From Spirochaetaceae bacterium (GTDB taxonomy: Bacteria > Spirochaetota > Leptospiria > Leptospirales > Leptonemataceae), in assembly GCA_002730875.1 (NCBI GenBank), contig PCBI01000005.1:806001-870000 (forward strand): 64,000 nt of DNA, given 5' to 3'. The notes beneath the pieces were generated by a model. That model saw only the letters and a list, made by a program, of their open reading frames with translations. It did not search any database and was not told the DNA's origin. Positions 719-15,285 of this stretch are shown here, in pieces. The translations under genes and the position numbers were made by a program. Within the stretch, counting starts at the first letter, position 1; every line of letters begins with the position of its first letter.

Positions 719-1771
719 TCAAATTTTGCGAAAGCGGTAGTGACTCACGAACCATTCATTGCCATTGTTGGTTCCAAACAGCTCCTCGCAGGCCATGAAA
801 AAGATGCGCCAGTATTCCACCCATTTGGCGGCCTGGTCCGACCCGTACACTCCATTGAATAGATCCAGGACTTCCGCTTTGTGTTTGTCCATGTTATCCA
901 GCCAGGCTCGGGCGGTTTTTTCGTAGTTGGTGCCGTTTACTACCTGGTGATCTTCCAGTTGGAAGCCATCCGCGAAATACAGATATAGATGATTGGAAGG
1001 CATAATGCCGCCGCTAAAGAAATAGCGGCCCATCCAGTTCGATTCCCCTTCTTCTTCGAAGAAATAGCTGAATTCCTTATGCGCAAAGACATGAATGAAA
1101 AGCTTACCGTCCTTCTTTAGCCATCCGTGCACCCTGGAAAAGAGTTCCCGGTAGTTTCGCATATGCTCGAACATCTCAATCGAGATGACCCGGTCAAAGG
1201 TGGAGCGAATCTTAAAATCATTCATGTCGGCGGTGATGATCTTGATATTTTTCAGTCCTTTCTGTTTGGCCTGATTTTCTATGTACTGCTTCTGGCTGGC
1301 CGAGTTGGATACAGCCGTAATCTTCGATTTTGGCAGTTTCTCGGCCATATAAAGAGTTAAGCTGCCCCAGCCACAGCCCAGTTCCAGAATGGACTGGCCA
1401 TTCTTCAATTCGGCGCTGCGCAAATAGCGAGCCAACATGGCCTCTTCAGCGCCATCCAGGTCCCGGATGCCGCCTTCCCAGAGACAGGAGCTGTATTTTT
1501 TTCGCGCTCCCAGTACGTAGTCGTAGAACTTTGCAGGCACCTCATAGTGCTGCTCGTTGGCCGCCTCCGTTTTCACCGCAACCGGCGAGCGCTCCAGCTC
1601 TTCGCGAAAAGCCTGGAAGTGGGCCTGTTGCGCATCGGCGCTGCCTTTCCATTCCTCTCGTAGCCTGGCCCGGTTCAGGCTACGGATTCCCATACGGATC
1701 AAAAAGTCCGGGACTACGCCCCGGGCCAGCATACGATCCATGATTCCGGGGGAGTGTTGTTCAGAACTCAT
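719..1771 (-). CDS. SAM-dependent methyltransferase of the cyclopropane-fatty-acid synthase family
   Basis: A 350-residue protein. The SAM-binding motif I, LELGCGWGSL, is at about 129-138, and the family's substrate-side block (EQHYEVPAKFYDYVLG) is at 73-88. The rest matches the CFA/coclaurine-N-methyltransferase-like fold through to the C-terminus. The start at 1771 has an AGGAG site six bases upstream. Members modify unsaturated acyl chains of phospholipids or small amines, and the substrate cannot be read from sequence. It is transcribed divergently from the light/lipid gene train at 2197 onward and shares its 425-base control region, which suggests a role in the same lipid response. It is a second CFA-family enzyme, distinct from the one at 8937. 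Confidence 0.8.
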   Translation of the reverse strand: MSSEQHSPGIMDRMLARGVVPDFLIRMGIRSLNRARLREEWKGSADAQQAHFQAFREELERSPVAVKTEAANEQHYEVPAKFYDYVLGARKKYSSCLWEGGIRDLDGAEEAMLARYLRSAELKNGQSILELGCGWGSLTLYMAEKLPKSKITAVSNSASQKQYIENQAKQKGLKNIKIITADMNDFKIRSTFDRVISIEMFEHMRNYRELFSRVHGWLKKDGKLFIHVFAHKEFSYFFEEEGESNWMGRYFFSGGIMPSNHLYLYFADGFQLEDHQVVNGTNYEKTARAWLDNMDKHKAEVLDLFNGVYGSDQAAKWVEYWRIFFMACEELFGTNNGNEWFVSHYRFRKI

Positions 1772-2196: not shown

Positions 2197-3678
2197 ATGA
2201 GTAGTAGCAGTCCAAGCTTTTTGCCGTTCAGGACCCGTATTGGATACGGGGCAGCGGAGATGGGAATCTTCGCTGTGGAAATGATGGTACGACTTCATCT
2301 GATGAAATTCTACACAGATGTGGCCGGCCTGAGCGCGCAGCTGGCAGGATTGGCCATTGCCGTAGCTATGTTCTGGGATGCATTTACCGATCCGGTGATG
2401 GGCATCCTGTCGGATCGAACCACTCGACCCTCCGGAAAGCGGAGGCCCTACCTGCTGCTGGGTAGTTTTGTGATGGCTCTGGCTTTCCTGGCCACGTTCA
2501 GGCCGCCCGTGCTGGAGGCCGAGAGTGGACGATTCGTTTTTCTACTTCTTAGCTACATCGTCCTGAACACATCCATGACGGTGCTGGCCGTGCCCCATTC
2601 AGCGCTGGGTGGCGAGCTTTCCTTTGATTCGAATGTGCGGACCTCGGTGTTTGCGTTCCGCCTCTTTTTCGGAAACATGGGCCTTCTGGCCGGTACCATT
2701 CTACCTATTGTATTTCTGGATACCATAGCCCCGGTGGGGGCCAGTGGAGAAAACCCGGGAATCAGAGACCCGGAAGCAGCCACAACGGCCTACTTTTATG
2801 CCGCCGCGGTCATTGCAGGGATCATCTTACTCACCGGATGGATTAGTTACCTGTCCACAGCCGGTCGGGACAAACCCGCCGAACCCCGACCTCCGCTTAA
2901 GGGCAAAGCCATCGCTCATGAAGTAGGTCGATTATTTCAGGTACTTCGTAACAAGGTATTCGTTGTCCTGCTGGCCTCCTACTTCATCGCCTACGTCGGG
3001 GTTTCCATCAATTCCACTCTGGCTCTCTACTATTACGAATACAGACTCCGGTTGGATAGTAACGCTGTAGGTTTGATTCTCGTCGTCTTTATCATCGTAT
3101 GGTCCGCTTCCCTGGCGTTCTGGACTTATCTTTCCAGGAAGGCGGGCAAGAAGTACCCAGGCTTTGCCGGCGTCTTTCTTCTGGGCGTGGCCACCTGCAT
3201 CACGTATCCATTCTTTCCTCCGGAAGAAGTAAAGTACCCTCTGATCATGTCCGTGCTCGGCGGCTTTCTTGTAGGAGCGATCGTCCTGCTGGACAGCCTG
3301 GTGGCGGACATCGTAGATTACGATGAGCTAAAGACCGGCGAACACCGGGAAGGCCTGTATTTTGGCTTCTGGAAAATGGCCATCAAAGCTTCCCGCGGCG
3401 TTTCCATGGCCTTTACCGGTACCTTGCTGGCGGCCATTGGTTTCAAGGCCAACCAGGTTCAGAGTCCAGAAGTTAGCGATCGAATTGCCTTTCTTTTTGG
3501 TCCGGGCGTAGGCGCATTCTTCCTCCTGGGCGCTCTGGTATTTCTGTTTCTGCCCTACAGCCGGGCCATCCATCATCGGGTGCAGGATCTTCTTGTGCGA
3601 AAACGCAGGATCCGAAACCGCTTGCATTCGAAATCCGGCCAGGTTCCCTCCACTGTGCAGACAGGAGGAAGGACATGA
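2197..3678 (+). CDS. MFS transporter, GPH (melibiose-carrier-like) family
   Basis: A 493-residue protein with about twelve hydrophobic segments. It carries the GPH/MFS_2 signature early in the chain: RIGYGAAEMG near residue 12, a FWDAFTDPVMGILSDRT loop near 65-82 and SGKRRPY at 86-92. The second half repeats the pattern with DSLVADIVDYDELKTGEHREG. Members are cation symporters for sugars or other small solutes; in light-responsive lipid clusters the cargo is unknown. Its stop overlaps the start of the cyclase gene by four bases (ATGA), so the two are translationally coupled. It is the first gene after the divergent control region. Confidence 0.85.
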   Translation: MSSSSPSFLPFRTRIGYGAAEMGIFAVEMMVRLHLMKFYTDVAGLSAQLAGLAIAVAMFWDAFTDPVMGILSDRTTRPSGKRRPYLLLGSFVMALAFLATFRPPVLEAESGRFVFLLLSYIVLNTSMTVLAVPHSALGGELSFDSNVRTSVFAFRLFFGNMGLLAGTILPIVFLDTIAPVGASGENPGIRDPEAATTAYFYAAAVIAGIILLTGWISYLSTAGRDKPAEPRPPLKGKAIAHEVGRLFQVLRNKVFVVLLASYFIAYVGVSINSTLALYYYEYRLRLDSNAVGLILVVFIIVWSASLAFWTYLSRKAGKKYPGFAGVFLLGVATCITYPFFPPEEVKYPLIMSVLGGFLVGAIVLLDSLVADIVDYDELKTGEHREGLYFGFWKMAIKASRGVSMAFTGTLLAAIGFKANQVQSPEVSDRIAFLFGPGVGAFFLLGALVFLFLPYSRAIHHRVQDLLVRKRRIRNRLHSKSGQVPSTVQTGGRT

Positions 3679-5411
3679 AGCTAAAGGAATTTCTGGAAAA
3701 GTATCCCTGGTCAAACTGGGGAATCAACCCGGCAAAGGAGCGAATCGTCGAGAACCTGTGGGTGTTTCCGGTGGACGTGAGCCGGGAAGAAATGTGGCCC
3801 TACATCGCCGATACATCGCGAACGAACAGCCTGTTGGGTCTGCCCGAAATGGAATTTCAGGAGCAAGAAGGAAAGTTGCTCGGGCGCACAAAATATGCCG
3901 GCATCCTACACGTCTGGGAAGAAGTGCCCTGGCAGTGGCGAAAACCGGAGGAGCTGATCTCCGTACGTCTCTATTCGAAGGGTCTGGGAAAAATGGTGCG
4001 CGGCATATTCTACCTTGAAGAGGCCGGAGAAAAGAAGACGAACATCCACATCTACTTTGGCTGGGTTACAGCTGGATTGTTCGGATCCCTGTTCTTGAAG
4101 ATCGGAACCGGAAGGATGCGATCCGGTTTTGAAAAGGTAATCAGACAGTACGAATCGGAAATAAAGCAAAAGGCCTCCGCCACACAATTCCAGGAAACCC
4201 GAATCGAAAAGCCTGTTATTGAGTTGGAAGACAAAGCCCGAACCATCGTGGACGCCACGCGTAAGCTCTGGGATAAGCAAGGCATTTCCTCTGAAATCTC
4301 AGAAAGCCTGGTGCGAATTGTTACTCGCTGGGATGACACTGATCTCTACAGGCTGCGGCCCATTGCCCTGTCCAAATTGCTGGGTGTGGATTCAAAACAG
4401 TTACTCCGCGCCCTTCTGTATGGATGCCAGTCAGGACTCTTCAACCTCACCTGGGATGTTATCTGTCCCCATTGCCGAGGCGTACGCGAAGAAAAAGGCA
4501 GCTTGATGAAGCTGGATGCTCGGGGTAGCTGCGATGTTTGCCAGATTGACTTCGATGCTACCGGCGAAGATAGCCTGGAAATCACATTCCATGTAAATCC
4601 TTCGGTGCGAAACGTCAAAAAGCAGTTCTTCTGTAGCGCCGAGCCCGCGCGAAAGCCCCACATAATTCTCCAGGATCGCCTGAACCCCGGCGAAGAAAAA
4701 GCGCTAAATCTTCCGCTGTCCGAAGGAAGGTACCGGGCTCGATTGCAGGGAAGTCAATCTTTCTTTTGGATGGAAACCGCTCAGTCAGAGACAAACTCCC
4801 GGTTTCGCTGGGAGGTGGGCGATACGCCGGCGCAATCCGTACGGCTGGCCTGCGAACCGGTTGTGGAGCTCAAGAATTCGGATCAGAAGCCCCATACCTT
4901 TGTAGTGGACATGACAGAACGCGATAACGAGGTACTGCGGCCCGGGGATCTGTTTCAGTTGCCCGAATACCGACACATGTTCCCGGATGAAAAGCTGCCG
5001 GACGATCTGAAGATCGACGTTGGAGTGCAAACCATTCTATTCACAGATATCGTGGGTTCTTCGCGGCTTTATAAGGAATTAGGCGATACCGGGGCCTTTC
5101 GCCGAGTTCGGGACCACTTTGCTGCCATCGGACAACTCATAGAAGACAGCAACGGGGCAGTCATCAAGACAGTGGGGGATGCGGTATTCGCGGTGTTTGG
5201 CAACCAGGTGGATGCCTTTGAAGCGGCCCTGGCGCTTCGCGCCGAGTTCGCCAAAAGCACTGCGCCTGTTGCCATCCGCATTTCTCTTCATACCGGCCCA
5301 TGTCTGGCGGTAAACCTGGACACAGGAATCGACTATTTTGGGAATACAGTGAATTTGAGCGCCAAACTACAGGCGCTGGCAGGCGCAGGGCAGATCGCAT
5401 TTACTGGATAG
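3675..5411 (+). CDS. DUF5939-like protein with C-terminal adenylate/guanylate cyclase domain; frame continues past a TAG
   Basis: 578 residues to the first stop. The N-terminal 150 residues look SRPBCC-like. The middle has two CxxC pairs (CPHC, CDVC, about 262-300) and resembles the DUF5939 region of Leptospira cyclases. The C-terminal class III cyclase domain begins at TILFTDIVGSSRLYKE (about 454-469), with the two metal-binding aspartates in FTDIVGS and VGDAVFAVF. It probably makes cAMP from ATP in the cytoplasm. The TAG at 5409-5411 interrupts the last strands of the domain: the same frame stays open for 37 more codons with family-like sequence. This is either a nonsense mutation, a read-through stop or a base error. 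Confidence 0.8.
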   Translation: MKLKEFLEKYPWSNWGINPAKERIVENLWVFPVDVSREEMWPYIADTSRTNSLLGLPEMEFQEQEGKLLGRTKYAGILHVWEEVPWQWRKPEELISVRLYSKGLGKMVRGIFYLEEAGEKKTNIHIYFGWVTAGLFGSLFLKIGTGRMRSGFEKVIRQYESEIKQKASATQFQETRIEKPVIELEDKARTIVDATRKLWDKQGISSEISESLVRIVTRWDDTDLYRLRPIALSKLLGVDSKQLLRALLYGCQSGLFNLTWDVICPHCRGVREEKGSLMKLDARGSCDVCQIDFDATGEDSLEITFHVNPSVRNVKKQFFCSAEPARKPHIILQDRLNPGEEKALNLPLSEGRYRARLQGSQSFFWMETAQSETNSRFRWEVGDTPAQSVRLACEPVVELKNSDQKPHTFVVDMTERDNEVLRPGDLFQLPEYRHMFPDEKLPDDLKIDVGVQTILFTDIVGSSRLYKELGDTGAFRRVRDHFAAIGQLIEDSNGAVIKTVGDAVFAVFGNQVDAFEAALALRAEFAKSTAPVAIRISLHTGPCLAVNLDTGIDYFGNTVNLSAKLQALAGAGQIAFTG

Positions 5412-5535: not shown

Positions 5536-6414
5536 ATGAAATATCTGATCAAGGATCTAAGCAAGCTAACCGGCTTTGACGGCGCAAGAATACGCAAATG
5601 GCAGGAGCGATATCGTATCCTGCGACCGGAGCGAGGCGCGAACGGCTATTGGTACTATGGGAATGAAGATTATATAGTGCTCACCAACATGAAGCGCCTT
5701 CTGGACAAAGGGGAAAAGCTTCAGTCCGTGGTCTCTCTGGGAAGGGAATACTTACTGGGCATGATGGGAGCCGATGACTTTTCGGAATCCGAAATGTCGC
5801 TAATTAAGCGAATCTCGAACAACGATTTCGCAAGCATTGAAAAGGACTTCGATGAAGAATATCAGCGAATGAACTTTGGTAGCTTTGTTCGGGGGCCCAT
5901 ACGTCAGGCTGTAGTCCTCACGGGAAGCGCCTGGGAAGCCGGCCTGCTTTCTGTGGCCGAAGAACATGCCTTTTCGCGGTGGCTGTTCACTTACATCTAC
6001 GGCAAGACCCGGGAACTGGGCATTCCCAGGGATCCAGTGTGGCTGGTTTGTGTCTTTCCGGGCGATCCCCATGAATTGGGAGCGCTTATGCATTATGCCC
6101 TGTTGATCTCCAAAAAAATCCCGGCGAAGTACGCCGGAACTCTGTCCATGGATCACATTGTAGATGAGTTAAAGCGAAACGGCTACCGAAACCTGAGTCT
6201 GTCCATGGTGATGCCTCAGTCCCTGGAAAAGATTGAAACCGTGCGAAAGAGGATCCTGGAGAAAAGCGGCGTGAATAAGGTCTTGATTGGTGGTCGTGGA
6301 TATCGTGCTGCCCTGGGGCCGGATTCGGACGAAGAAAAGCCTCAGTATTGCGAACCTCCGGTGATGAACAAGCGAAGGAAGAATGCCCTGGAGGAGATCA
6401 AGAAGCAATCATGA
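5536..6414 (+). CDS. MerR-family regulator with B12-binding photoreceptor domain (CarH/LitR-like)
   Basis: 292 residues. An N-terminal MerR winged helix (residues 3-70) is followed by a helical domain containing W133 and E143-H144. This is exactly the W-x9-EH motif that CarH uses to hold the adenosyl group of cobalamin. A Rossmann domain with D177-P-H179-E-L-G182, the DxHxxG cobalamin motif, follows; His179 would be the lower cobalt ligand. CarH/LitR proteins repress in the dark as AdoCbl-bound tetramers and let go when blue-green light breaks the Co-C bond. The residue after W133 is Glu, where Thermus CarH has the His that caps cobalt after photolysis. A GGAAGG site precedes the ATG. It probably controls the surrounding genes. 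Confidence 0.88.
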   Translation: MKYLIKDLSKLTGFDGARIRKWQERYRILRPERGANGYWYYGNEDYIVLTNMKRLLDKGEKLQSVVSLGREYLLGMMGADDFSESEMSLIKRISNNDFASIEKDFDEEYQRMNFGSFVRGPIRQAVVLTGSAWEAGLLSVAEEHAFSRWLFTYIYGKTRELGIPRDPVWLVCVFPGDPHELGALMHYALLISKKIPAKYAGTLSMDHIVDELKRNGYRNLSLSMVMPQSLEKIETVRKRILEKSGVNKVLIGGRGYRAALGPDSDEEKPQYCEPPVMNKRRKNALEEIKKQS

Positions 6415-6496
6415 GAGGGTTAATTGCGAAGAGGATGTGGCAAGAAGAATAGGGTCGCGCAAGAAACCTGTAAAGAACCATAAACAAATGGAAATC

Positions 6497-6511
6497 GCCG
6501 ACGAAGTCGGC
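6497..6511. promoter_or_regulatory. Short inverted repeat in the gap before the FAD gene
   Basis: GCCGAC and GTCGGC are separated by three bases, within the 278-base non-coding gap (6415-6692) between the MerR-like regulator and the FAD oxidoreductase. The gap is the longest inside the gene train and is the obvious place for an internal promoter. Whether this dyad is a protein site or a weak hairpin cannot be told. Confidence 0.25.
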
Positions 6512-6692
6512 ATGCATGCGGAATTTAAGCTGTAGCTCCTTTTGGCTGTGGCGGCTCAAGCAGTCGGCAACAGTGGAGCTCAGAAGAAAACAACATAAAA
6601 AGAATTGGGAAAGTTTGCCCGGCGGGGGAACGAGCGGGCTGCAAAAGAAATATGTGTCCGGAGATTTGCCGGACCTCAAAGGGAAAAGGAAA

Positions 6693-7970
6693 ATGAAAAT
6701 CGGAATTGTTGGAAGTGGAATCTCCGGGCTGGGTGCGGCCTATCATCTGAAAACCAAACTGGGCTACGATGTGGAGATCTTTGAGAAGAACGACTACGTC
6801 GGAGGCCATACCAATACCATTCTCCTGGAGGAAGAAGGTCGTTCGGTGCCCGTGGATACCGGATTCATTGTATTTAACAACAGGACGTATCCAGAGTTGA
6901 TCTCTTTGTTCGATGAGTTGGATGTAGAGTCGCAAGAGAGCGATATGTCTTTTAGCGTCTGGAACCTGAAGTCCGGTCTGGAATGGAGCGGGATCGGTTT
7001 CAAAGGGCTTTTTTCGCAGAAGCGAAACCTGCTGAATCCGGCCTTTGTTTCAATGTTGATGTCGGCGAAACGCTTCTTCAAGGAAGGAGCCCGGGACTTT
7101 GAAGGGCTGGACCCGGATCTCTCCATTGGCGATTATTTGAAGCAACGGGGCTACTCACAATACTTCTGCGATAACTTCGTGGTCCCGATGGCTTCGGCGG
7201 TCTGGTCAACCCCCATGCGCGAGATGCTCGATTTTCCGGCCGGATCCCTGCTTCGCTTCTTCAAGAATCATGGCATGCTGGATATTGAAAAGACAGTGGT
7301 CTGGCGTACGCTCATGGGCGGCTCCTGGAGCTACGTTAAGGCGATTCGCGAGCGAGCAGACCTCAAGATTCATACATCCACGCCTACCAGAGAAGTGCGA
7401 AAGACCGAAAATGGCGCCGCCATTGTTACCGACTCGGGTACGCATGAGTTCGACGCTGTGCTGATGGCCTGCCATTCCGATCAAGCTGTTAGACTCTACT
7501 CGGATATGCCCGAAAGCCACCGACGCATTCTGAGTTTGTTTAAATACCAGAAGAACCAGGCAATCCTGCACAGCGATGAAAAGGCCATGCCCACGCGAAA
7601 AAGCGCCTGGGCCTCCTGGAATTTTAAAGTCACCGATGACGAAAGAACCTGCACCGTATACTGGATGAACAAGCTGCAAAACCTTGAGCAGCAGGGAGCC
7701 CGTAAGAACTACATGGTTTCCATCAACGAATTCCAGGATCTGGACGAAAGCAAGATCCACCGAGTTATCGATTACGAGCATCCGCTATTCGACGTTCAGG
7801 CCGTCACTCATCAGAAGGACCTTTTGAGAATCAACCACGAGGGGCCGGTGCATTACTGCGGCGCTTACTTTCGCTACGGCTTCCATGAAGATGGATTCTG
7901 GTCCGGCTTGCAGGCGGCGAAAGCTCTGGACGAGAGATTGAAGAATCAAAGAACGCTGGCGGAGGCCTGA
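6693..7970 (+). CDS. FAD/NAD(P)-binding amine-oxidase-like oxidoreductase (COG2907 type)
   Basis: A 425-residue enzyme when started at ATG 6693, which follows an AAAGGA site and places the dinucleotide motif GIVGSGISGLGAAYHL at residue 4. An upstream in-frame start at 6516 would add 59 residues with no family character, so I rejected it. After the GxGxxG fold come the FEKNDYVGGHTNT FAD-contact block and a C-terminal segment ending YCGAYFRYGFHEDGFWSG, typical of COG2907. This family regularly sits beside DUF1365 and CFA-synthase genes in light- or singlet-oxygen-induced operons and is thought to dehydrogenate or otherwise oxidise modified acyl chains. The exact reaction here is inference. Confidence 0.85.
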   Translation: MKIGIVGSGISGLGAAYHLKTKLGYDVEIFEKNDYVGGHTNTILLEEEGRSVPVDTGFIVFNNRTYPELISLFDELDVESQESDMSFSVWNLKSGLEWSGIGFKGLFSQKRNLLNPAFVSMLMSAKRFFKEGARDFEGLDPDLSIGDYLKQRGYSQYFCDNFVVPMASAVWSTPMREMLDFPAGSLLRFFKNHGMLDIEKTVVWRTLMGGSWSYVKAIRERADLKIHTSTPTREVRKTENGAAIVTDSGTHEFDAVLMACHSDQAVRLYSDMPESHRRILSLFKYQKNQAILHSDEKAMPTRKSAWASWNFKVTDDERTCTVYWMNKLQNLEQQGARKNYMVSINEFQDLDESKIHRVIDYEHPLFDVQAVTHQKDLLRINHEGPVHYCGAYFRYGFHEDGFWSGLQAAKALDERLKNQRTLAEA

Positions 7971-7996: not shown

Positions 7997-8950
7997 ATGA
8001 TGAGTACGAATTTTAACAGCCGATTGTATCGAGCCCAGGTCTATCATAAGCGACTTCAGGTGAAGGTACATGAGTTTCGCACATCCATGTACACCTGGTA
8101 TCTGGATCTGGATGAACTTGAGCGGCTTGGTAAGAAACATCCGATCCTGATTGGGATCAATCGTGCCCGGGTTTATACTTTTCGGGACAAAGATCACTTC
8201 CGGTTCTGGTCCGACGATGAGAAAAAGCGGGCGGCGGCTCCGGAGCTTTCGCTGTCTGATGCGGAGGGCCTGCCGGGCAAAAGGCGCTCCGGTGGAACAG
8301 GCAAGCCGCAATCAGATGCCCGAAGTCCGGAATCCGACCGGTTCGGCAATGTTCGGCGTTGGGTGAATCATTATTTCCGGGAAAAGGAGCTACCGGTTCC
8401 TCATAAGGTCTTTCTGCTTACAAACCTGCGCTATCTGGGATACGGGTTCAATCCGGTGAGTTTCTATTTCGCCCTGGACAAAGATGAGCGATTGTATGCG
8501 ATCCTGGCTGAAGTGAACAACACTTTCGGCGAACAGAAGCCCTACTTGATCATTCTGGATCAGCCAGTAAGCGAAAGCGAGGATAAGCGAATCTTTGCGC
8601 GCGCCTGGAAGAATTTCTACGTTTCTCCGTTTATTGACCGGGACCGGGAGTTCGTCTTCCGAATGAAGCTTCCTTCGGAGAAGCTAAGCCTGGGAATCGA
8701 TACCTACGAAGGCGCTACGCCCATTCTGAGGGCAGCCTATTCTGGGACGCGAAAACCCATCGCCACTTCCCAGATGCTGAGTAGCATGGCGCGCTTCCCG
8801 CTGGTTACATTAAAAGTGATTGTTTTGATTCACTGGCATGCGCTGCGACTCTTCCTGAAGAAGGTCCCCTATTTTGGCAAAGATGATACAGATGTACTGA
8901 TTCAAAAAGATGAACACAAAAGAAAAGAGGTTACCCATGCTACGGTATAA
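7997..8950 (+). CDS. DUF1365 family protein
   Basis: 317 residues matching the DUF1365 (COG3496) layout. The start is SRLYRAQVYHKRL. It is followed by FRTSMYTWYLDLDEL, the central TNLRYLGYGFNPVSFYFALD and AILAEVNNTFGE, and then KNFYVSPFI. The function of the family is not established. It almost always accompanies the FAD protein before it and the CFA-like enzyme after it, which suggests a partner step in unusual fatty-acid formation. The start at 7997 is an ATGATG pair 26 bases after the FAD gene. The 3' end overlaps the CFA-like gene, consistent with coupled translation. Confidence 0.87.
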   Translation: MMSTNFNSRLYRAQVYHKRLQVKVHEFRTSMYTWYLDLDELERLGKKHPILIGINRARVYTFRDKDHFRFWSDDEKKRAAAPELSLSDAEGLPGKRRSGGTGKPQSDARSPESDRFGNVRRWVNHYFREKELPVPHKVFLLTNLRYLGYGFNPVSFYFALDKDERLYAILAEVNNTFGEQKPYLIILDQPVSESEDKRIFARAWKNFYVSPFIDRDREFVFRMKLPSEKLSLGIDTYEGATPILRAAYSGTRKPIATSQMLSSMARFPLVTLKVIVLIHWHALRLFLKKVPYFGKDDTDVLIQKDEHKRKEVTHATV

Positions 8951-10229
8951 GCAGAACACAATTTCCCCCCGAAAGAAATCTGTAAGGAGTCCTGAAGCCC
9001 TGGCCAACTACCCCCGTGGCCTTTATCAGAAGGCTTTCCATCGCGTGCTGTCGCAGGCAACTGTAGGCCGGCTGGACCTTCAAATTGGCGAAGGAATCCA
9101 CTCCTACGGCGATCTGGAGAGCAAAGAAGCAGTTTCGCTTAGAATTCTGGATGAGCGATTCTTTAAACATGCGGTGCTGCATGGCGACATTGGATTTGGC
9201 GAAGCCTACGTGGAAAGCCTCTGGGATACGGATGATCTGCTGGCGGTTTTGGACTGGTTCTTGAAGAACGGAGATTCCAATCCTACCTTCGCCCAGGGCG
9301 CGGCCAGGAGCATCGTTGTGGGCGGGCTTAACTTTCTGGATCGAATCGGACATTCCTTTCGCCGAAATACCAAAGAGGGAAGCCTACGGAATATCAGCTA
9401 TCATTACGACATCTCGAACGACCTGTATCGTTTGATGCTGGATCCCACCATGGCCTATTCCTCCGGTAAGTATTCCGAAGGCGTGAGCGATTTGCAGGTG
9501 GCTCAGGAAAAGAAATACGAGACCATTTGCCGAAAGATGGCCCTGAAACCAGATCTGGAACTACTGGAAGTGGGTTCGGGCTGGGGAGGCTTTGCGCTCT
9601 ATGCTGCGCGTCATTATGGCTGCAAGGTCACTACCGTTACCATTTCCCGGCAGCAGTATGAGTATACTCGCGAACTCATTCAGGCAGAAGGAATGGAAGA
9701 CCGGATCAATGTAGTGCTTCAGGATTACCGTGATATCCAGGGCACCTATGACCGAATTGTTAGTATCGAAATGGTGGAAGCATTGGGACTTGAGTACCAT
9801 GATACCTTCTTCAAGAAAATGGATTCGCTACTTCGACCGCGAGGTATTATGCTCATACAGTGCATTACTTTTCCGGAGAGTTCCTACGAAAACTATGTGA
9901 GAAGTATCGACTGGATTGCGAAGCACATATTTCCTGGTTCTTTGTTGCTTTCTCAGTTCGAGGTAATGAAGTCACTGAAACGGGTCACCGATCTGAATAT
10001 TTACAGCATTGAGAGTCTGGGACTCAGCTACGCGAAAACCTTGAACGCCTGGGCCCGTCGGTTTAACGCCAATCTGGACCGGGTACGGGAGCTTGGATTT
10101 GACGAAACGTTTATCCGGCTCTGGAACTATTATCTGGCCTACTGCGAAGTGGGATTTGCCAACAGGTATATCAACGACGTTCACATAGTTTTTTCCCGAT
10201 CGCAGAATACAGAACTGCCCGACGGCTAG
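8937..10229 (+). CDS. Cyclopropane-fatty-acyl-phospholipid synthase family protein
   Basis: 430 residues from ATG 8937, which has an AGAGG site six bases upstream. An in-frame ATG at 8910 with a poorer site would add nine residues. Family marks are SYHYDISNDLYRLMLDPTMA (about 157-176), the SAM motif LLEVGSGWGGFALYAARHYG, and the C-terminal YAKTLNAWARRFNAN. These enzymes add a carbon from SAM to the double bond of membrane phospholipid acyl chains. Where the E. coli enzyme has YSCAYW, with the active-site Cys, this protein reads YSSGKY, so the product may be a methylated or methylenated chain rather than a cyclopropane. It is co-transcribed with the FAD and DUF1365 genes. Confidence 0.85.
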   Translation: MLRYKQNTISPRKKSVRSPEALANYPRGLYQKAFHRVLSQATVGRLDLQIGEGIHSYGDLESKEAVSLRILDERFFKHAVLHGDIGFGEAYVESLWDTDDLLAVLDWFLKNGDSNPTFAQGAARSIVVGGLNFLDRIGHSFRRNTKEGSLRNISYHYDISNDLYRLMLDPTMAYSSGKYSEGVSDLQVAQEKKYETICRKMALKPDLELLEVGSGWGGFALYAARHYGCKVTTVTISRQQYEYTRELIQAEGMEDRINVVLQDYRDIQGTYDRIVSIEMVEALGLEYHDTFFKKMDSLLRPRGIMLIQCITFPESSYENYVRSIDWIAKHIFPGSLLLSQFEVMKSLKRVTDLNIYSIESLGLSYAKTLNAWARRFNANLDRVRELGFDETFIRLWNYYLAYCEVGFANRYINDVHIVFSRSQNTELPDG

Positions 10230-10287: not shown

Positions 10288-10542
10288 ATGACCGATGACA
10301 CAGATCAGGATATGCTTGTTCGCAGCATGGAATCCCAGCTGATTACATTGTACGGCGAGAGGGAGCTATTGATGAATGAGGTGGGCGTGTGTAATGCCCA
10401 GGAGCTTATCTCATTGATCAAGAGCATGGAAGCCCAGCTTGCAGACCTGTACGCGGACCGGGAAAATGCAATCATTATCGACGGAAATCGAATAACGATT
10501 TCCGGACCAAAGAAGATATTCGTTCGAAAGAGTAAAAGTTAA
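10288..10542 (+). CDS. Small repeat protein upstream of PYP, unknown function
   Basis: 84 residues, with a very strong AGGAGG site seven bases before the ATG. It contains an internal duplication: SMESQLITLYGERE (13-26) and SMEAQLADLYADRE (46-59), offset by 33 residues and identical at 10 of 14 positions. The C-terminal tail IIIDGNRITISGPKKIFVRK (62-81) is strand-like and basic. A very similar tail ends the 165-residue protein encoded downstream at 12549. I recognise no family. Position between the lipid genes and PYP, and the shared tail, suggest a PYP-associated adaptor or partner; this is inference. Confidence 0.8.
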   Translation: MTDDTDQDMLVRSMESQLITLYGERELLMNEVGVCNAQELISLIKSMEAQLADLYADRENAIIIDGNRITISGPKKIFVRKSKS

Positions 10543-10575: not shown

Positions 10576-11004
10576 ATGAGCGATGCAATAATGAAAAAAA
10601 TTCAGGAACAGGCGGCCTACTGGGCCCAGAGTAGCGCCCGCTTTGTTGAAGACAAGGTAGTGGATGAGATAGCGAACTATGATCGCAGTCAGATAGATCA
10701 GCTACCCTATGGAGTAATCAAGTTGGACGATGACGGCAAAATCTTGCTCTTCAATCGTCATGAATCGGAGAAGTCCGGCGTGGCCGTTTCGGATGCCGAA
10801 GGTAAGAGCTTCTTTAGTCAGGTGGCGCCCTGTACCAACAATGCCATCTTTCTGGGAAGCTTTCAAAAGGGTGTAGGCGAAGGTAGTATGGATTTGATTT
10901 TTCCTTACACATTCACCTACAAAATGAAGCCAACTCCGGTGAAGGTTCACCTCTATAGGAAGGAAGGAAGCTCCGATAACTGGGTCTTCGTAAAGTGGAG
11001 CTAG
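10576..11004 (+). CDS. pyp: Photoactive yellow protein (blue-light PAS photoreceptor)
   Basis: 142 residues that align without gaps to Halorhodospira PYP at a constant offset of 17 over the core. Cys86 in VAPCTN is the chromophore-binding Cys69. Also conserved are Glu63 (Glu46), Phe79 (Phe62), Tyr111 (Tyr94), Phe113 (Phe96), Met117 (Met100) and the terminal WVFVK. PYP binds p-coumarate as a thioester and photocycles under blue light. Differences in the pocket are Phe59 for Tyr42, Ser67 for Thr50 and Val69 for Arg52. The N-terminal extension of about 17 residues is helical in character. An AGGAGG site precedes the ATG. The p-coumarate ligase-like and ammonia-lyase genes follow, which makes the assignment very firm. 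Confidence 0.97.
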   Translation: MSDAIMKKIQEQAAYWAQSSARFVEDKVVDEIANYDRSQIDQLPYGVIKLDDDGKILLFNRHESEKSGVAVSDAEGKSFFSQVAPCTNNAIFLGSFQKGVGEGSMDLIFPYTFTYKMKPTPVKVHLYRKEGSSDNWVFVKWS

Positions 11005-11008
11005 TGAG

Positions 11009-12556
11009 TTGGAACTCGCGGTCGCCTGGAAAAAGCTACTCTACCGTCATCTAAAGGGACGGGCGGAGCCGCTTTTTTTGTTTCCCGAGCAGGCCGCATC
11101 GGCGGCCGCACTATGGATGGGTGTTCGTCTGTGGATGCAACGCTGGGAAACGGGCGACCCCATTGTATTCAGCGGGCTGCCTGCAGGACCTGAATACATC
11201 GAAGTGCTGGCGGCCACATTGGCTCGTCAGGGGACTTTCATAGCCGGTCATCCAGAGCGGGGAGCAGGGTTCCTTCTGAATGAAGTTCAGAGCTGGCAGC
11301 CGGACTATGTAGTGTTGCCCCGAGGATCTGACCTGGAGGTGCCCGGGTATCGCGTCTGCGAAGAAGTCAACGAACACCGAAATGCAGTACTCCTCGGTCG
11401 CCGGCCTGGCTACGAAGATTTGCAGATCAATCATCCGCTTCGACGCAGGCTTGCCAACACCGATCGCCGAATTGTGCTGGCTACTTCGGGAACCAGCGGC
11501 GGCAACGCCAAATGGAGTATCCTTTCCGATCGAAATCTATTCAGCGTTCTTCGCACCCACATCCCCGCCCTGGGTATCCGAAAACGGACCACGCTGAGCG
11601 TTCTTCCCTGGAACCATGCATTTGGCCTGGTGCTGGATTTGTTACCCTCATTGTTCGGCGCGCGGACCGTGGTTCGCGATAATCCATCGTCTATGCAACG
11701 CTTCGGCCACTTGCAGGACCGCTTTTCCATAGATTACATGAGCGCCGTGCCGGCCCTTCTGGAACGTTGGTTCGCCAGCGATTCAGTGCAGCGGATACAT
11801 AAATTCAAAGGGGGGCTACTCGGAGGCGCTCCCATTAACGTGGAGTTGGCGGAGCGGCTGCGTGGCTCCCGATTTAGAGTGGGGTATGGCCAGACGGAAG
11901 CATCGCCGGGAGTGACTCTGGGTCAGCCCGGACAATTCCACGAGGGGTTTCTGGGCAAGGCCCGGGGTTGCGAGGTGCGGCTCCAGGACGGACAGCTCGA
12001 GTATCGCGGACCCAACGTATGCTCGGCGCTGGTGTCCTTTCCCGGGACCATTTCAGAGCAGCCAGGGAGCAAATCGTTGAGTCAATCCCTCAGGGAGACG
12101 ATACAAAGCCGCATGGAAGCGTTGGACAACTCCATGACCCTTCGTAGCGCCGATCAATGGCAGAGAACCGGCGACATAGCCGAACTGCACGATGCAGGTT
12201 TCGTTTTCCTGGGAAGGGAGGATTACAACTTCAAACTCTCCAATGGCCGCTTCCTGGATGTCATCCATCTGGAAAGGCAACTGAGCGATAGCACCGGCCA
12301 CAGATGCTTTGTTGTGCCTTTGAACGGCGGAATGCAGATCTTCGTAGTTGCCGAGGATTCCTCGGACAGAGATTCCATTCTATCATCTCCAGAAATGAGA
12401 GCGGAAATGGAAACCCGGCTACGCGAACAGTTGGGTCGTCTTTCCGGATACATTCGCACGATTCATGTAATACCATCCAGTCGGTTGCCTTTGAACGCTA
12501 AAGGAATCGTGCTTCGAAGTGAATTACCAGCGATACGAGAGGTGAGCTATGCCTGA
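11009..12556 (+). CDS. Adenylate-forming acyl-CoA ligase, probable p-coumaryl:CoA ligase for PYP
   Basis: 515 residues starting at TTG 11009, four bases after the PYP stop and behind a GTGGAG site. ANL-superfamily motifs are in order: the phosphate loop TSGTSGGNAK (159-168), GYGQTEASPG (about 293-302), the hinge-side WQRTGD (about 388) and a C-terminal LPLNAKGIVLR block, where the usual G-K order is altered. The enzyme would activate p-coumarate with ATP and CoA to give the thioester donor that loads PYP. The sequence is divergent from plant-type 4CL. The substrate is inferred from position between PYP and the ammonia-lyase. It overlaps the next gene by eight bases. Confidence 0.85.
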   Translation: MELAVAWKKLLYRHLKGRAEPLFLFPEQAASAAALWMGVRLWMQRWETGDPIVFSGLPAGPEYIEVLAATLARQGTFIAGHPERGAGFLLNEVQSWQPDYVVLPRGSDLEVPGYRVCEEVNEHRNAVLLGRRPGYEDLQINHPLRRRLANTDRRIVLATSGTSGGNAKWSILSDRNLFSVLRTHIPALGIRKRTTLSVLPWNHAFGLVLDLLPSLFGARTVVRDNPSSMQRFGHLQDRFSIDYMSAVPALLERWFASDSVQRIHKFKGGLLGGAPINVELAERLRGSRFRVGYGQTEASPGVTLGQPGQFHEGFLGKARGCEVRLQDGQLEYRGPNVCSALVSFPGTISEQPGSKSLSQSLRETIQSRMEALDNSMTLRSADQWQRTGDIAELHDAGFVFLGREDYNFKLSNGRFLDVIHLERQLSDSTGHRCFVVPLNGGMQIFVVAEDSSDRDSILSSPEMRAEMETRLREQLGRLSGYIRTIHVIPSSRLPLNAKGIVLRSELPAIREVSYA

Positions 12557-13046
12557 AAAGGTGCAAACGATGAACGCTCTGGTCTCCGATGAATCCGTGG
12601 AGCACCTTTTAGAATATCTGTTTGACGATAGTCCGCTTTCTGAGCAGCAAAAAGAAGGACTGCGAACGGAAGCCTCTGGATACAAAAGCGATCTGTGTGA
12701 CCAGGCCAGGGTATTCGAGCAGACCGAACAGTTGGATTCCTATATCGCGCTCAAGTTCATTGAGCTTAAAGCCCGCTGGATCGTGCTGAATGCCCGAATT
12801 CAGGACTATAATCGCAATCTCACGGAGCCGGATCCCTATTTGTTGTATCAGTCTTCGATACTTAGCGGTATCCTGGGCATGCTGGAAGAAGGCCTGTCCG
12901 AGTCCGCCCTGCATATGATCAACGATACGCTGGCCAATCAGGCTTCTTCGCTGGATTCCGGCCCATATGTCATTATTGAGGGAGATCAGATCATTATTGA
13001 AGGGAAGCGAAAGGTGATGATCTACAAGCGAGGAAAGCATAGCTAG
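12549..13046 (+). CDS. Small PYP-cluster protein with tail shared with the 10288 protein, unknown function
   Basis: 165 residues, acidic and mostly helical, with no signal peptide or membrane segment. The final part, VIIEGDQIIIEGKRKVMIYK, parallels IIIDGNRITISGPKKIFVRK of the 84-residue protein: a hydrophobic strand, an acidic-Gly turn, a second strand, Gly, then a basic strand. The bodies of the two proteins do not obviously match. It overlaps the ligase gene by eight bases and stops one base before the ammonia-lyase start, so it is embedded in the chromophore-biosynthesis genes. I do not recognise a family. Confidence 0.8.
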   Translation: MPEKVQTMNALVSDESVEHLLEYLFDDSPLSEQQKEGLRTEASGYKSDLCDQARVFEQTEQLDSYIALKFIELKARWIVLNARIQDYNRNLTEPDPYLLYQSSILSGILGMLEEGLSESALHMINDTLANQASSLDSGPYVIIEGDQIIIEGKRKVMIYKRGKHS

Positions 13047-14801
13047 ATGATTTTGGATGAGAAATGTCCAACGCCCCAAACGCTGGAATCGTCGTTGGCA
13101 TCCATTCTGGAATCCGTTCCGGCGGCGGCAGGGAAGCTGGGCGCCAGTCTTGCCGCGGGGCTGGACAAGTCTCGAACTCTCCTGGAGCAATCCCTGGCGG
13201 CGGGCCGGCCAGTATACGGTTCAAACACTGGCTACGGGCCCTTTGTAGAGTTTGCAGCCGAAGACGATAAGGGCGAGGATCTGATAACCCACTTATTGGC
13301 CGGAAGCGGCTCGCCTTTGCCCGGAAACATTGTGATGGGCGCCATGTATCTGCGTGCCTGGACCATGTCCCGGGGGAAGTCCGGTGTGCGATTGCCGGTG
13401 ATCCAGGCATATCTGGATGCGCTAAAGCATTGTAGCGGCGAAAACGGCGAACAGTTCTATCCCTTCATCCCGTCGGTGGGTTCGCTGGGCGCCAGCGGCG
13501 ATCTGGTGCCCCTGGCACATTTACTGAATGCGATTCTCGGCAGGGGGCAATGGTTTCGGCACAAGGTAGGCATGAGCGCCGGATCCCTTTCTGCCGGGTC
13601 TCCAAAGCAGAGTTTTCTCGGCAGTCATACACTTGATCGTCGGGAAGCCCTGGCCTGCATCAACGGGATCAGCTTCAGCAAAGCCACGGCCAGTCTCGCC
13701 TACTGCAGACTGGAACGCCTGTTAAGAATCCAGGAGTTACTAACCGCAAGCGTTTTCGCGCTGTTGGATGCGAATCCCGAACATCTACATCCATCTCTGT
13801 TTCAATCCTCTACGACAGGCAATTCAGCTCGGCGCATTCGAGAAGCGCTTTCGCATGTCCTGGGGCTACCGAATAGCCCGAATAGCCCAGATGGGCCGGG
13901 AGCTGTGGATTCCATGGACATGGCGGCCCGGGATGCGTATTACTCCGAACTACTGAAAACCTCTGGCCCCCATTCCACTGACCCTGCGCGTGAAAGAACC
14001 GGTTACGGCCTGCAGGCCCCTTACAGCTTGCGGTGTGCGCCCCAGTTGCTCGGCGCCTGCAACCAGGCCCTGGAATCGGGTCTGGCGTCATTAATGCAGG
14101 ATCTGGAAACCGTAGACGATAATCCTATTCTGGACCCGGACAGCGGCACCATTGCCCATGGAGGGAATTTCTTTGGTCAGCCAACGGCTTTCGCATCGGA
14201 TCAGATGACCATGGTTGCTACACAGATCGGCGTTCTGGCAGAAAGGCAACTGGCTTTGTTGCTGGAGCCCGAAATTAACGGCGAAGCGGGCTTGATGCTG
14301 GCGGAGAAACCGGGGGCGGATAGCGGACTGGCTGGCGTGCAGCTAACGGCCACCGCTCTTGTGGCCGAATTGCGAAGTCTGGCGCAGATGCATAGCACGT
14401 TCAGTATTCCTACAAACGGAAAGAATCAGGACGTTGTGCCCATGTCATTGCTGGCCGCGCGAAAAGCTCTGGAATCCACCGAGCGCCTGGCGGCTCTGCT
14501 GGGCGCGGAGCTACTGGCCATTCGAAAGCTCTGGAGTTTCCGTGCCCGGCGCGGGCGGATGACGGGAGAGAGACCGATTCCCAGAGCGGGACCGATGTTA
14601 GAAACCGGCCGAACCGGAGACTTTCCTTTCTGGTCCGACTCCGTGCTGGAAGACCTGGGATCTCGCACCGTGGCCTGGGGACCTGTATCCGCCCTGGAGG
14701 CCAATCCGACGGGCTCTTTCGGAAAGAAACTTTCACTCTATCAATGTGCATTCTTAAGCAAGGACGTGCTGACCCATGAAAATCTATACTCTGGACACTG
14801 A
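13047..14801 (+). CDS. Tyrosine ammonia-lyase (aromatic amino acid lyase, MIO type)
   Basis: 584 residues of the HAL/PAL/TAL family. The Ala149-Ser150-Gly151 triad in GSLGASGDLVPL forms the MIO electrophile. Tyr57 in VYGSNTGYGP is the catalytic tyrosine. The substrate-selectivity pair aligns as His82-Leu83 (THLLAG), the combination found in Rhodobacter TAL and favouring tyrosine over phenylalanine. The reaction gives p-coumarate and ammonia in the cytoplasm. The ATG directly follows the previous stop, and the 3' end overlaps the SRPBCC gene by 26 bases. It is somewhat longer than typical bacterial TAL (about 510-530). The assignment is strongly supported by the neighbouring PYP and ligase genes. 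Confidence 0.92.
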   Translation: MILDEKCPTPQTLESSLASILESVPAAAGKLGASLAAGLDKSRTLLEQSLAAGRPVYGSNTGYGPFVEFAAEDDKGEDLITHLLAGSGSPLPGNIVMGAMYLRAWTMSRGKSGVRLPVIQAYLDALKHCSGENGEQFYPFIPSVGSLGASGDLVPLAHLLNAILGRGQWFRHKVGMSAGSLSAGSPKQSFLGSHTLDRREALACINGISFSKATASLAYCRLERLLRIQELLTASVFALLDANPEHLHPSLFQSSTTGNSARRIREALSHVLGLPNSPNSPDGPGAVDSMDMAARDAYYSELLKTSGPHSTDPARERTGYGLQAPYSLRCAPQLLGACNQALESGLASLMQDLETVDDNPILDPDSGTIAHGGNFFGQPTAFASDQMTMVATQIGVLAERQLALLLEPEINGEAGLMLAEKPGADSGLAGVQLTATALVAELRSLAQMHSTFSIPTNGKNQDVVPMSLLAARKALESTERLAALLGAELLAIRKLWSFRARRGRMTGERPIPRAGPMLETGRTGDFPFWSDSVLEDLGSRTVAWGPVSALEANPTGSFGKKLSLYQCAFLSKDVLTHENLYSGH

Positions 14802-15285
14802 TGTCGTTCTCAACGTGGATCTCAAGACCGCCTGGGATTTCTTCTCGGATCCCGGTAATCTAAAGAGGATCACTCCGCCGTCCATGGGATTCGAAATTAC
14901 GCATCAGGACGGATCGCAAATGTATGCGGGTATGATCGTCACCTACAAGGTGCGGCCCTTCGGAGGCATTCCCGTGAACTGGGTGACGGAGATTACGCAT
15001 GTGCAGGAACCGCATTACTTTGTGGACGAACAGCGGTTTGGTCCATACAGGCTCTGGCATCACAAGCATTTCTTTCGGGAAACGGATCGGGGCCTCTACT
15101 GCCGGGATCTGGTGCATTATGCGTTGCCTGGCGGAGCGGTAGGCCGGATGATTCATCCTATTCTGGTGCGGCCCAGGCTGGAGCAGATATTCAATTACAG
15201 GCAGAGGATTCTACTGGAAACCTTTGGCGGTTTTTCCGTAAATGGAGCGCAAACCATCCCGGAGCTTACGGAGGCGAAGTCATGA
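14776..15285 (+). CDS. SRPBCC-family (START-like) lipid/ligand-binding protein
   Basis: 169 residues. The opening TDVVLNVDLKTAWDFFSDPGN, with LKRITPPSMGF after it, is the classic start of cyclase/dehydrase-like SRPBCC proteins, and the central WVTEITHVQEPHYFVDEQRFGPYRLWHH segment also fits. Such proteins bind hydrophobic ligands in a helix-grip cavity. Members are commonly found in the same light-regulated lipid clusters as DUF1365 and CFA genes. There is no signal peptide. The start lies inside the end of the ammonia-lyase gene, and the stop overlaps the next ATG (ATGA), so it is clearly part of the same transcript. Confidence 0.8.
   Translation: MKIYTLDTDVVLNVDLKTAWDFFSDPGNLKRITPPSMGFEITHQDGSQMYAGMIVTYKVRPFGGIPVNWVTEITHVQEPHYFVDEQRFGPYRLWHHKHFFRETDRGLYCRDLVHYALPGGAVGRMIHPILVRPRLEQIFNYRQRILLETFGGFSVNGAQTIPELTEAKS

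Follow-up and report, generated by a model that had tools for sequence, protein, structure and literature searches.

Photoactive yellow protein (PYP) is a model photoreceptor and the structural prototype of PAS domains. In recent papers, the signaling chain or partner downstream of it is described as still unknown (PMC9664959, PMC12826048, PMC13250908). The window analyzed here, a stretch of 64,000 nucleotides from a spirochete genome of the family Leptonemataceae, encodes a PYP in a run of genes that also holds candidate enzymes for its chromophore and two small genes, referred to below as modules A and B (Table 1). The question raised by this locus is what these two genes do next to a light sensor.

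Table 1. Genes of the PYP run and of the cassette upstream, with positions in the window.
Feature	Position	Strand	Evidence
DUF5939-guanylate cyclase family protein, upstream of CarH	3675-5411	+	Pfam, reading frame comparison
CarH-type MerR regulator	5536-6414	+	PDB CarH match E 1.4e-17, W-x9-EH, cobalamin His
FAD amine-oxidase-like protein	6693-7970	+	PF01593 E 6e-22; ORF opens at 6516
DUF1365 protein, light-response cassette	7997-8950	+	PF07103 E 8.5e-66
Cyclopropane-fatty-acid-synthase-like methyltransferase	8910-10229	+	PF02353 E 5e-81
Module A, upstream PYP partner gene	10288-10542	+	84 aa, two "QLxxLYxEkE" helices and β tail
PYP	10576-11004	+	142 aa; TIGR02373 and PDB matches, alignment, pocket table, tree
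Candidate p-coumarate:CoA ligase (AMP-binding), TTG start	11009-12556	+	PF00501 E 3.6e-19, motifs
Module B, PYP-linked partner gene	12549-13046	+	165-aa helix bundle and β tail
Candidate tyrosine ammonia-lyase	13047-14801	+	PF00221 Lyase_aromatic E 4e-99, PDB alignment, motif table
SRPBCC (Polyketide_cyc-like) protein, end of run, overlaps lyase	14776-15285	+	PF03364 E 9.8e-06

The PYP gene and its chromophore pocket

The first-pass annotation had read the gene as a PYP with its chromophore cysteine at position 86, encoded by a spirochete, and both parts of this reading held up. The protein matched the NCBIfam PYP model TIGR02373 (E 3.4e-32, 111 bits) as well as solved PYPs (E 4e-28, with residues 23 to 140 aligned), and its nearest relatives were found in Leptospiraceae metagenome-assembled genomes (MAGs). 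The alignment placed Cys86 on the chromophore-carrying Cys69 of Halorhodospira halophila (Hhal) PYP, Glu63 on Glu46, Phe59 on Tyr42, and Ser67 on Thr50. In Hhal numbering, the residues retained are Cys69, Glu46, Ile31, Phe62, Val66, Ala67, Pro68, Tyr94, Phe96, and Met100, while Tyr42 is replaced by Phe, Thr50 by Ser, and Arg52 by Val. Glu46 is present in 97.1% of published PYPs, and Phe42 is a minority form. In the window PYP and most of the other Phe42 PYPs examined, Phe42 was paired with Ser50, the others with this pair being three relatives from the same genus and the Salinibacter-like PYPs. Published Ser50 PYPs absorb at 432 to 434 nm, whereas the Y42F variant of Hhal PYP shows species near 446 and 400 nm in equilibrium (PMC12826048), so the color of the window PYP is not confidently predictable.

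Since the score of 111 bits lies under the curated cutoff of TIGR02373 (143 bits), the protein is not filed under this narrower, Hhal-type equivalog. Together with Phe in place of Tyr42, the low score could be taken as the mark of a nonfunctional PAS domain unable to bind p-coumarate. We consider this highly improbable, as the remaining pocket residues all match, the cutoff is missed by every PYP of the class, Phe42 occurs in 8.9% of published PYPs, and a ligase and a lyase adjoin the gene. A generic PAS domain was likewise rejected for this gene on its pocket residues and partner enzymes. What did not stand was the suggestion that a PYP is unusual in a spirochete. Sixteen of the 48 genomes of the class encode one, Leptospira PYPs make up much of the published clade B (Xing et al. 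2022, PMC9664959), and the PYP of L. biflexa has been purified and characterized (457 nm and 0.35 s, as quoted from Mix 2016 in PMC12826048).

Chromophore enzymes and layout of the run

The earlier claim that PYP, ligase, and lyase together form a full set for making the chromophore is borne out by gene identities and motifs. The candidate ligase contains the core motifs of adenylate-forming enzymes and the catalytic lysine, which lies in a "KG..R" setting ("KG" and not "GK") common to PYP-linked ligases, as seen among the nonfused ligases of related PYP loci that have that region present. The candidate lyase contains the Ala-Ser-Gly (MIO) triad, and its best curated name was a histidine ammonia-lyase (HAL) subfamily, far under the cutoff of that model. 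Its selectivity site holds a His-Leu pair where HAL has Ser-His. By alignment through HAL, the histidine falls at the site of His89 of the R. sphaeroides tyrosine ammonia-lyase (TAL), in which a change of His89 to Phe switches the substrate to phenylalanine (PMC9002059), and the pair at this site points to tyrosine as the likely substrate of the window enzyme.

The three genes had also been described as one run with near-zero gaps. This is correct for PYP and the ligase, separated by 4 bp, but the ligase and the lyase are not adjacent. Module B lies between them, sharing 8 bp with the ligase gene and directly abutting the lyase, and module A precedes PYP; both had been overlooked in the list of genes. 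The order is kept in the sister genomes, where synonymous sites have reached saturation and replacement divergence is low, which argues that this layout is not due to chance. The SRPBCC protein that closes the run has a counterpart at the PYP locus of G019, a genome of another genus. In 19 of 79 loci (from the best 80 of 435 matches), PYP had both a ligase and a lyase nearby, and TAL is uncommon in published pyp operons (7 of 113). Two loci contain a ligase-lyase fusion in a single frame of about 1,000 codons (L056:10354-13323, from an Armatimonadota MAG, and L058:12381-15503, from an unplaced MAG).

Modules A and B

Neither module matched a Pfam or NCBIfam family or gave a match in PDB sequence searches, and the predicted fold of module B had no PDB fold match at an E value of ≤0.001. 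AlphaFold predicted B as a six-helix bundle with strands (pLDDT 88.8, pTM 0.75) and A as a helical hairpin with strands in a β-meander (pLDDT 81 but pTM 0.39), and a similar β tail ends both proteins. In comparisons with the sister genomes, replacement divergence was 0.09 to 0.18 for A and about 0.34 for B, while synonymous sites were saturated or nearly so, indicating that A and B are real genes. The window genome contained one strong match to B and one weak match.

The distribution of the modules was screened in three groups for B (306 genomes) and in two for A (162 genomes). In the class of the window genome, A was found in all 16 genomes with PYP and in none of the 32 without it, and B was found in 13 of the 16 compared to 0 of the 32. 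A 14th PYP-containing genome (G004) had only a weak match to B, and of the three genomes that have PYP but no convincing B, two have a PYP-bearing contig that stops partway through the ligase gene. Within an order of Rhodothermota (114 genomes), A was present in 20 of 21 PYP-containing genomes versus 0 of 93 without PYP, and B in 21 of 21 versus 1 of 93. The single PYP-less genome of that order with a B match is G101 (G101:C312:8941-9342, on L166; E 3.9e-27). In a class of Bdellovibrionota (144 genomes), B was present in all five genomes with PYP and in none of the other 139. Fisher P values for the class of the window genome and the Rhodothermota order ranged from 3e-9 to 5e-22 and are descriptive only, as they ignore shared ancestry. 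The model of A was built without any Rhodothermota sequence, which makes this test of A independent; in the spirochete and Bdellovibrionota tests, several positive genomes had contributed to the models, and what is informative there is the lack of matches in genomes without PYP. In Salinibacter-type genomes, A is distant from PYP yet still co-occurs with it, and in at least two of them it is located beside an AMP-binding ligase. In G039, B adjoins a lyase.

A split within the PYP family

A tree of 88 PYP domains set an Hhal-type group apart at 99/94 and placed the window PYP with those of its own genus at 100/98. On these two groupings, we rejected the idea that the gene was recently acquired from the H. 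halophila-type clade. The distribution of the modules differed between the two sides of the split: A or B was found in 0 of 10 loci of the Hhal-type clade versus A and/or B in 66 of the 69 loci outside it (79 loci, from the best 80 of 435 matches). These matches were ordered by their similarity to the alignment used as the query, and the set is biased toward the side of the family to which the window PYP belongs. Locus lengths vary, some being short, so that single absences of A or B mean little.

Fusions and gene neighbors

In one open reading frame from Planctomycetota, an A unit is fused to a PYP that has the chromophore cysteine, and in L061 modules B and A are fused to each other. In Bdellovibrionota, B forms the C terminus of CheA-type kinases with an Hpt-HATPase(-CheW) arrangement, while elsewhere it is the N terminus of proteins that end in a CheW-like domain, with several of the CheW matches of B fusions falling under the curated cutoff. 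Chemoreceptors without a recognized sensor domain adjoin A in three spirochetes, consistent with the chemoreceptor reported next to the PYP of Leptospira (Xing et al. 2022, PMC9664959).

Rhodothermota also encode giant proteins made of A units, up to 1,266 aa in length (L096:5306-9106, L083:8062-9753, L107:7143-9836, and L108:6739-9624), which end in a PYP-like domain and are found beside a genuine PYP. In this terminal domain the cysteine is changed to Ser, Gly, or Ala, or the motif is lost altogether, and it is possible that the domain serves as a blind dimer partner of PYP.

A probable light-response cassette upstream of PYP

The genes upstream of module A, previously taken for a lipid-modification operon, are best read as a CarH-type light-response cassette. 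This reading is based on the CarH-type regulator, on the recurrence of the cassette in relatives and beside the PYP of G019, and on the LitR regulons of Pseudomonas, in which a photolyase is joined by UfaM, an enzyme for furan fatty acids (PMC9758184). Pfam recognized the MerR domain alone in the window regulator, and the NCBIfam CarH model covered residues 3 to 256 with 82 bits against a cutoff of 400. Judging from its alignment to CarH, its cobalamin histidine, and its W-x9-EH motif, the regulator is probably itself a B12 photoreceptor, and the run probably encodes two photoreceptors, PYP and CarH. In relatives with and without PYP, a CarH-type regulator was found beside the FAD gene, mostly together with DUF1365, in stretches of less than 4 kb. 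CarH was absent from the PYP locus in most PYP-containing relatives. In G019, the CarH cassette, with a photolyase, is followed by the order A-PYP-A-PYP-ligase-B. The MerR-B12 regulator and fatty-acid methyltransferase of the window are also found in the CarH/LitR cassettes of Pseudomonas, Thermus, and Myxococcus, and the photolyase of such cassettes is present in G019; the window differs by the PYP module inserted in the run.

The start of the FAD gene was set at the ATG at 6693, from the sequence and from the extent of tblastn matches in relatives. The spacing between the cyclase and CarH genes is 9 bp in two sister genomes, which suggests that the transcription unit probably starts upstream of CarH, and the cyclase is possibly part of it. 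A promoter and terminator scan gave nothing above shuffled sequences. Neither the DNA ahead of CarH nor the spacer between CarH and the FAD gene yielded a significant repeat, and no significant promoter was found in this spacer. The cyclase frame of the window ends at a TAG codon (5409-5411) at which two sisters read on. Beyond it, the frame stays open for another 38 codons and closes immediately ahead of CarH, and it looks as if the gene had been recently truncated or as if a base of the TAG were an error. The gap between CarH and the FAD gene (6415-6692) is about 270 bp, compared to 38 to 51 bp in two sisters. The run is flanked by another cyclopropane-fatty-acid-synthase-like methyltransferase (719-1771, minus strand) and an MFS_2-type transporter (2197-3678, plus strand), and similar methyltransferase and transporter genes flank the PYP locus of G019.

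A possible route for the light signal

We consider it reasonably probable that this light operon carries a blue-light module, in which PYP is supplied by its own enzymes, A and B act as its partners into chemosensory-type signaling, and CarH provides control. In such a module, the lyase would convert tyrosine to p-coumarate, the ligase would activate it as a CoA thioester, and PYP would take it up on Cys86, as can be expected from the conserved catalytic residues. Light would then bring the holoprotein into a partly unfolded signaling state, which is proposed to change how PYP contacts A and/or B; B, or A and B jointly, would then relay the signal to complexes of CheA, CheW, and receptors. The CarH-type repressor with AdoB12 would keep the operon repressed in the dark and release it in the light. 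The presence of B on CheA and CheW proteins and of A beside sensorless chemoreceptors indicates that plugging PYP into chemosensory-type signaling is the most likely role of the modules, and A and B are probably the long-sought signaling partners of PYP. For the family as a whole, we lean toward A and B being undescribed families and obligate partners of most PYPs outside the Hhal type, bridging them to CheA, CheW, and chemoreceptors. The window PYP locus itself contains no chemoreceptor and no CheA kinase, which, like the single strong B match in the window genome, weighs against this model. In this genus, the target of A and B may be an array whose genes lie elsewhere, or it may be the neighboring cyclase or CarH.

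A direct action of PYP with A and B on CarH or on the nucleotide cyclase, instead of on chemosensory proteins, would fit the position of both genes, which precede PYP on the same strand in the window and its sisters. A cyclase gene in divergent orientation to A-PYP-B is found in G023 as well, and in P. mendocina a short LOV photoreceptor acts through a class II LitR (PMC9758184), a precedent for PYP acting on CarH. We regard this as unlikely, however, since the window CarH retains a light-sensing motif of its own, CarH lies off the PYP locus in most of the relatives with PYP, and the cyclase, intact in two sisters, has an early stop in the window. It is also possible to see A and B as helpers in making or loading the chromophore, i.e., chaperones of apo-PYP or of the ligase and lyase, and not as signal carriers. 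Such a role would agree with the location of B between the two enzymes in the window, with A beside the AMP-binding ligase in Salinibacter-type genomes, and with B next to the lyase in G039, but it is also unlikely given the fusions of B to CheA kinases and CheW-domain proteins and the lack of both modules at Hhal-type loci (0 of 10). The chemoreceptors adjoining A speak against it as well, and Hhal PYP requires TAL and ligase only (PMC12826048).

Comparison with known systems

The closest known PYPs are those of clade B from Leptospira and Salinibacter, with characterized members in L. biflexa and S. ruber, which fall on the same side of the PYP tree as the window PYP; the Salinibacter-like ones also have Phe42/Ser50 in common with it. 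In Leptospira a chemoreceptor is found next door to PYP, whereas the window PYP is encoded together with ligase and lyase inside a CarH cassette. In the PYP literature surveyed, A and B were not found described for the PYPs of Leptospira or Salinibacter. The pyp-pCL-TAL operon of H. halophila brings PYP, ligase, and lyase together in an order identical to that of the window, but it lacks the modules, which in the window lie before PYP (A) and between the enzymes (B), and it belongs to the opposite side of the 99/94 split. The PAS protein and chemoreceptor pair CetA/CetB of Campylobacter jejuni, used by Xing et al. as the model for Leptospira PYP (PMC9664959), is likewise a case of a soluble PAS protein feeding a sensorless receptor. 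In contrast to CetA/CetB, two dedicated extra proteins would stand here between the sensor and the receptor or kinase, and the window locus has no receptor. Finally, the PYP-binding protein of R. capsulatus (Kim et al. 2021) is a reported partner of a PYP and in this respect resembles A and B as proposed here. Should it turn out to be a homolog of either module, A and B would lose some of their novelty and the partner model would be strengthened.

As small, expressible proteins that co-occur with PYP, modules A and B open the question of the PYP partner to direct tests by binding and by gene deletion. A light-dependent pair of partners could double as an optogenetic tool. If the proposed connection is true, A and B would supply the step that is still missing from the signaling chain of PYP.
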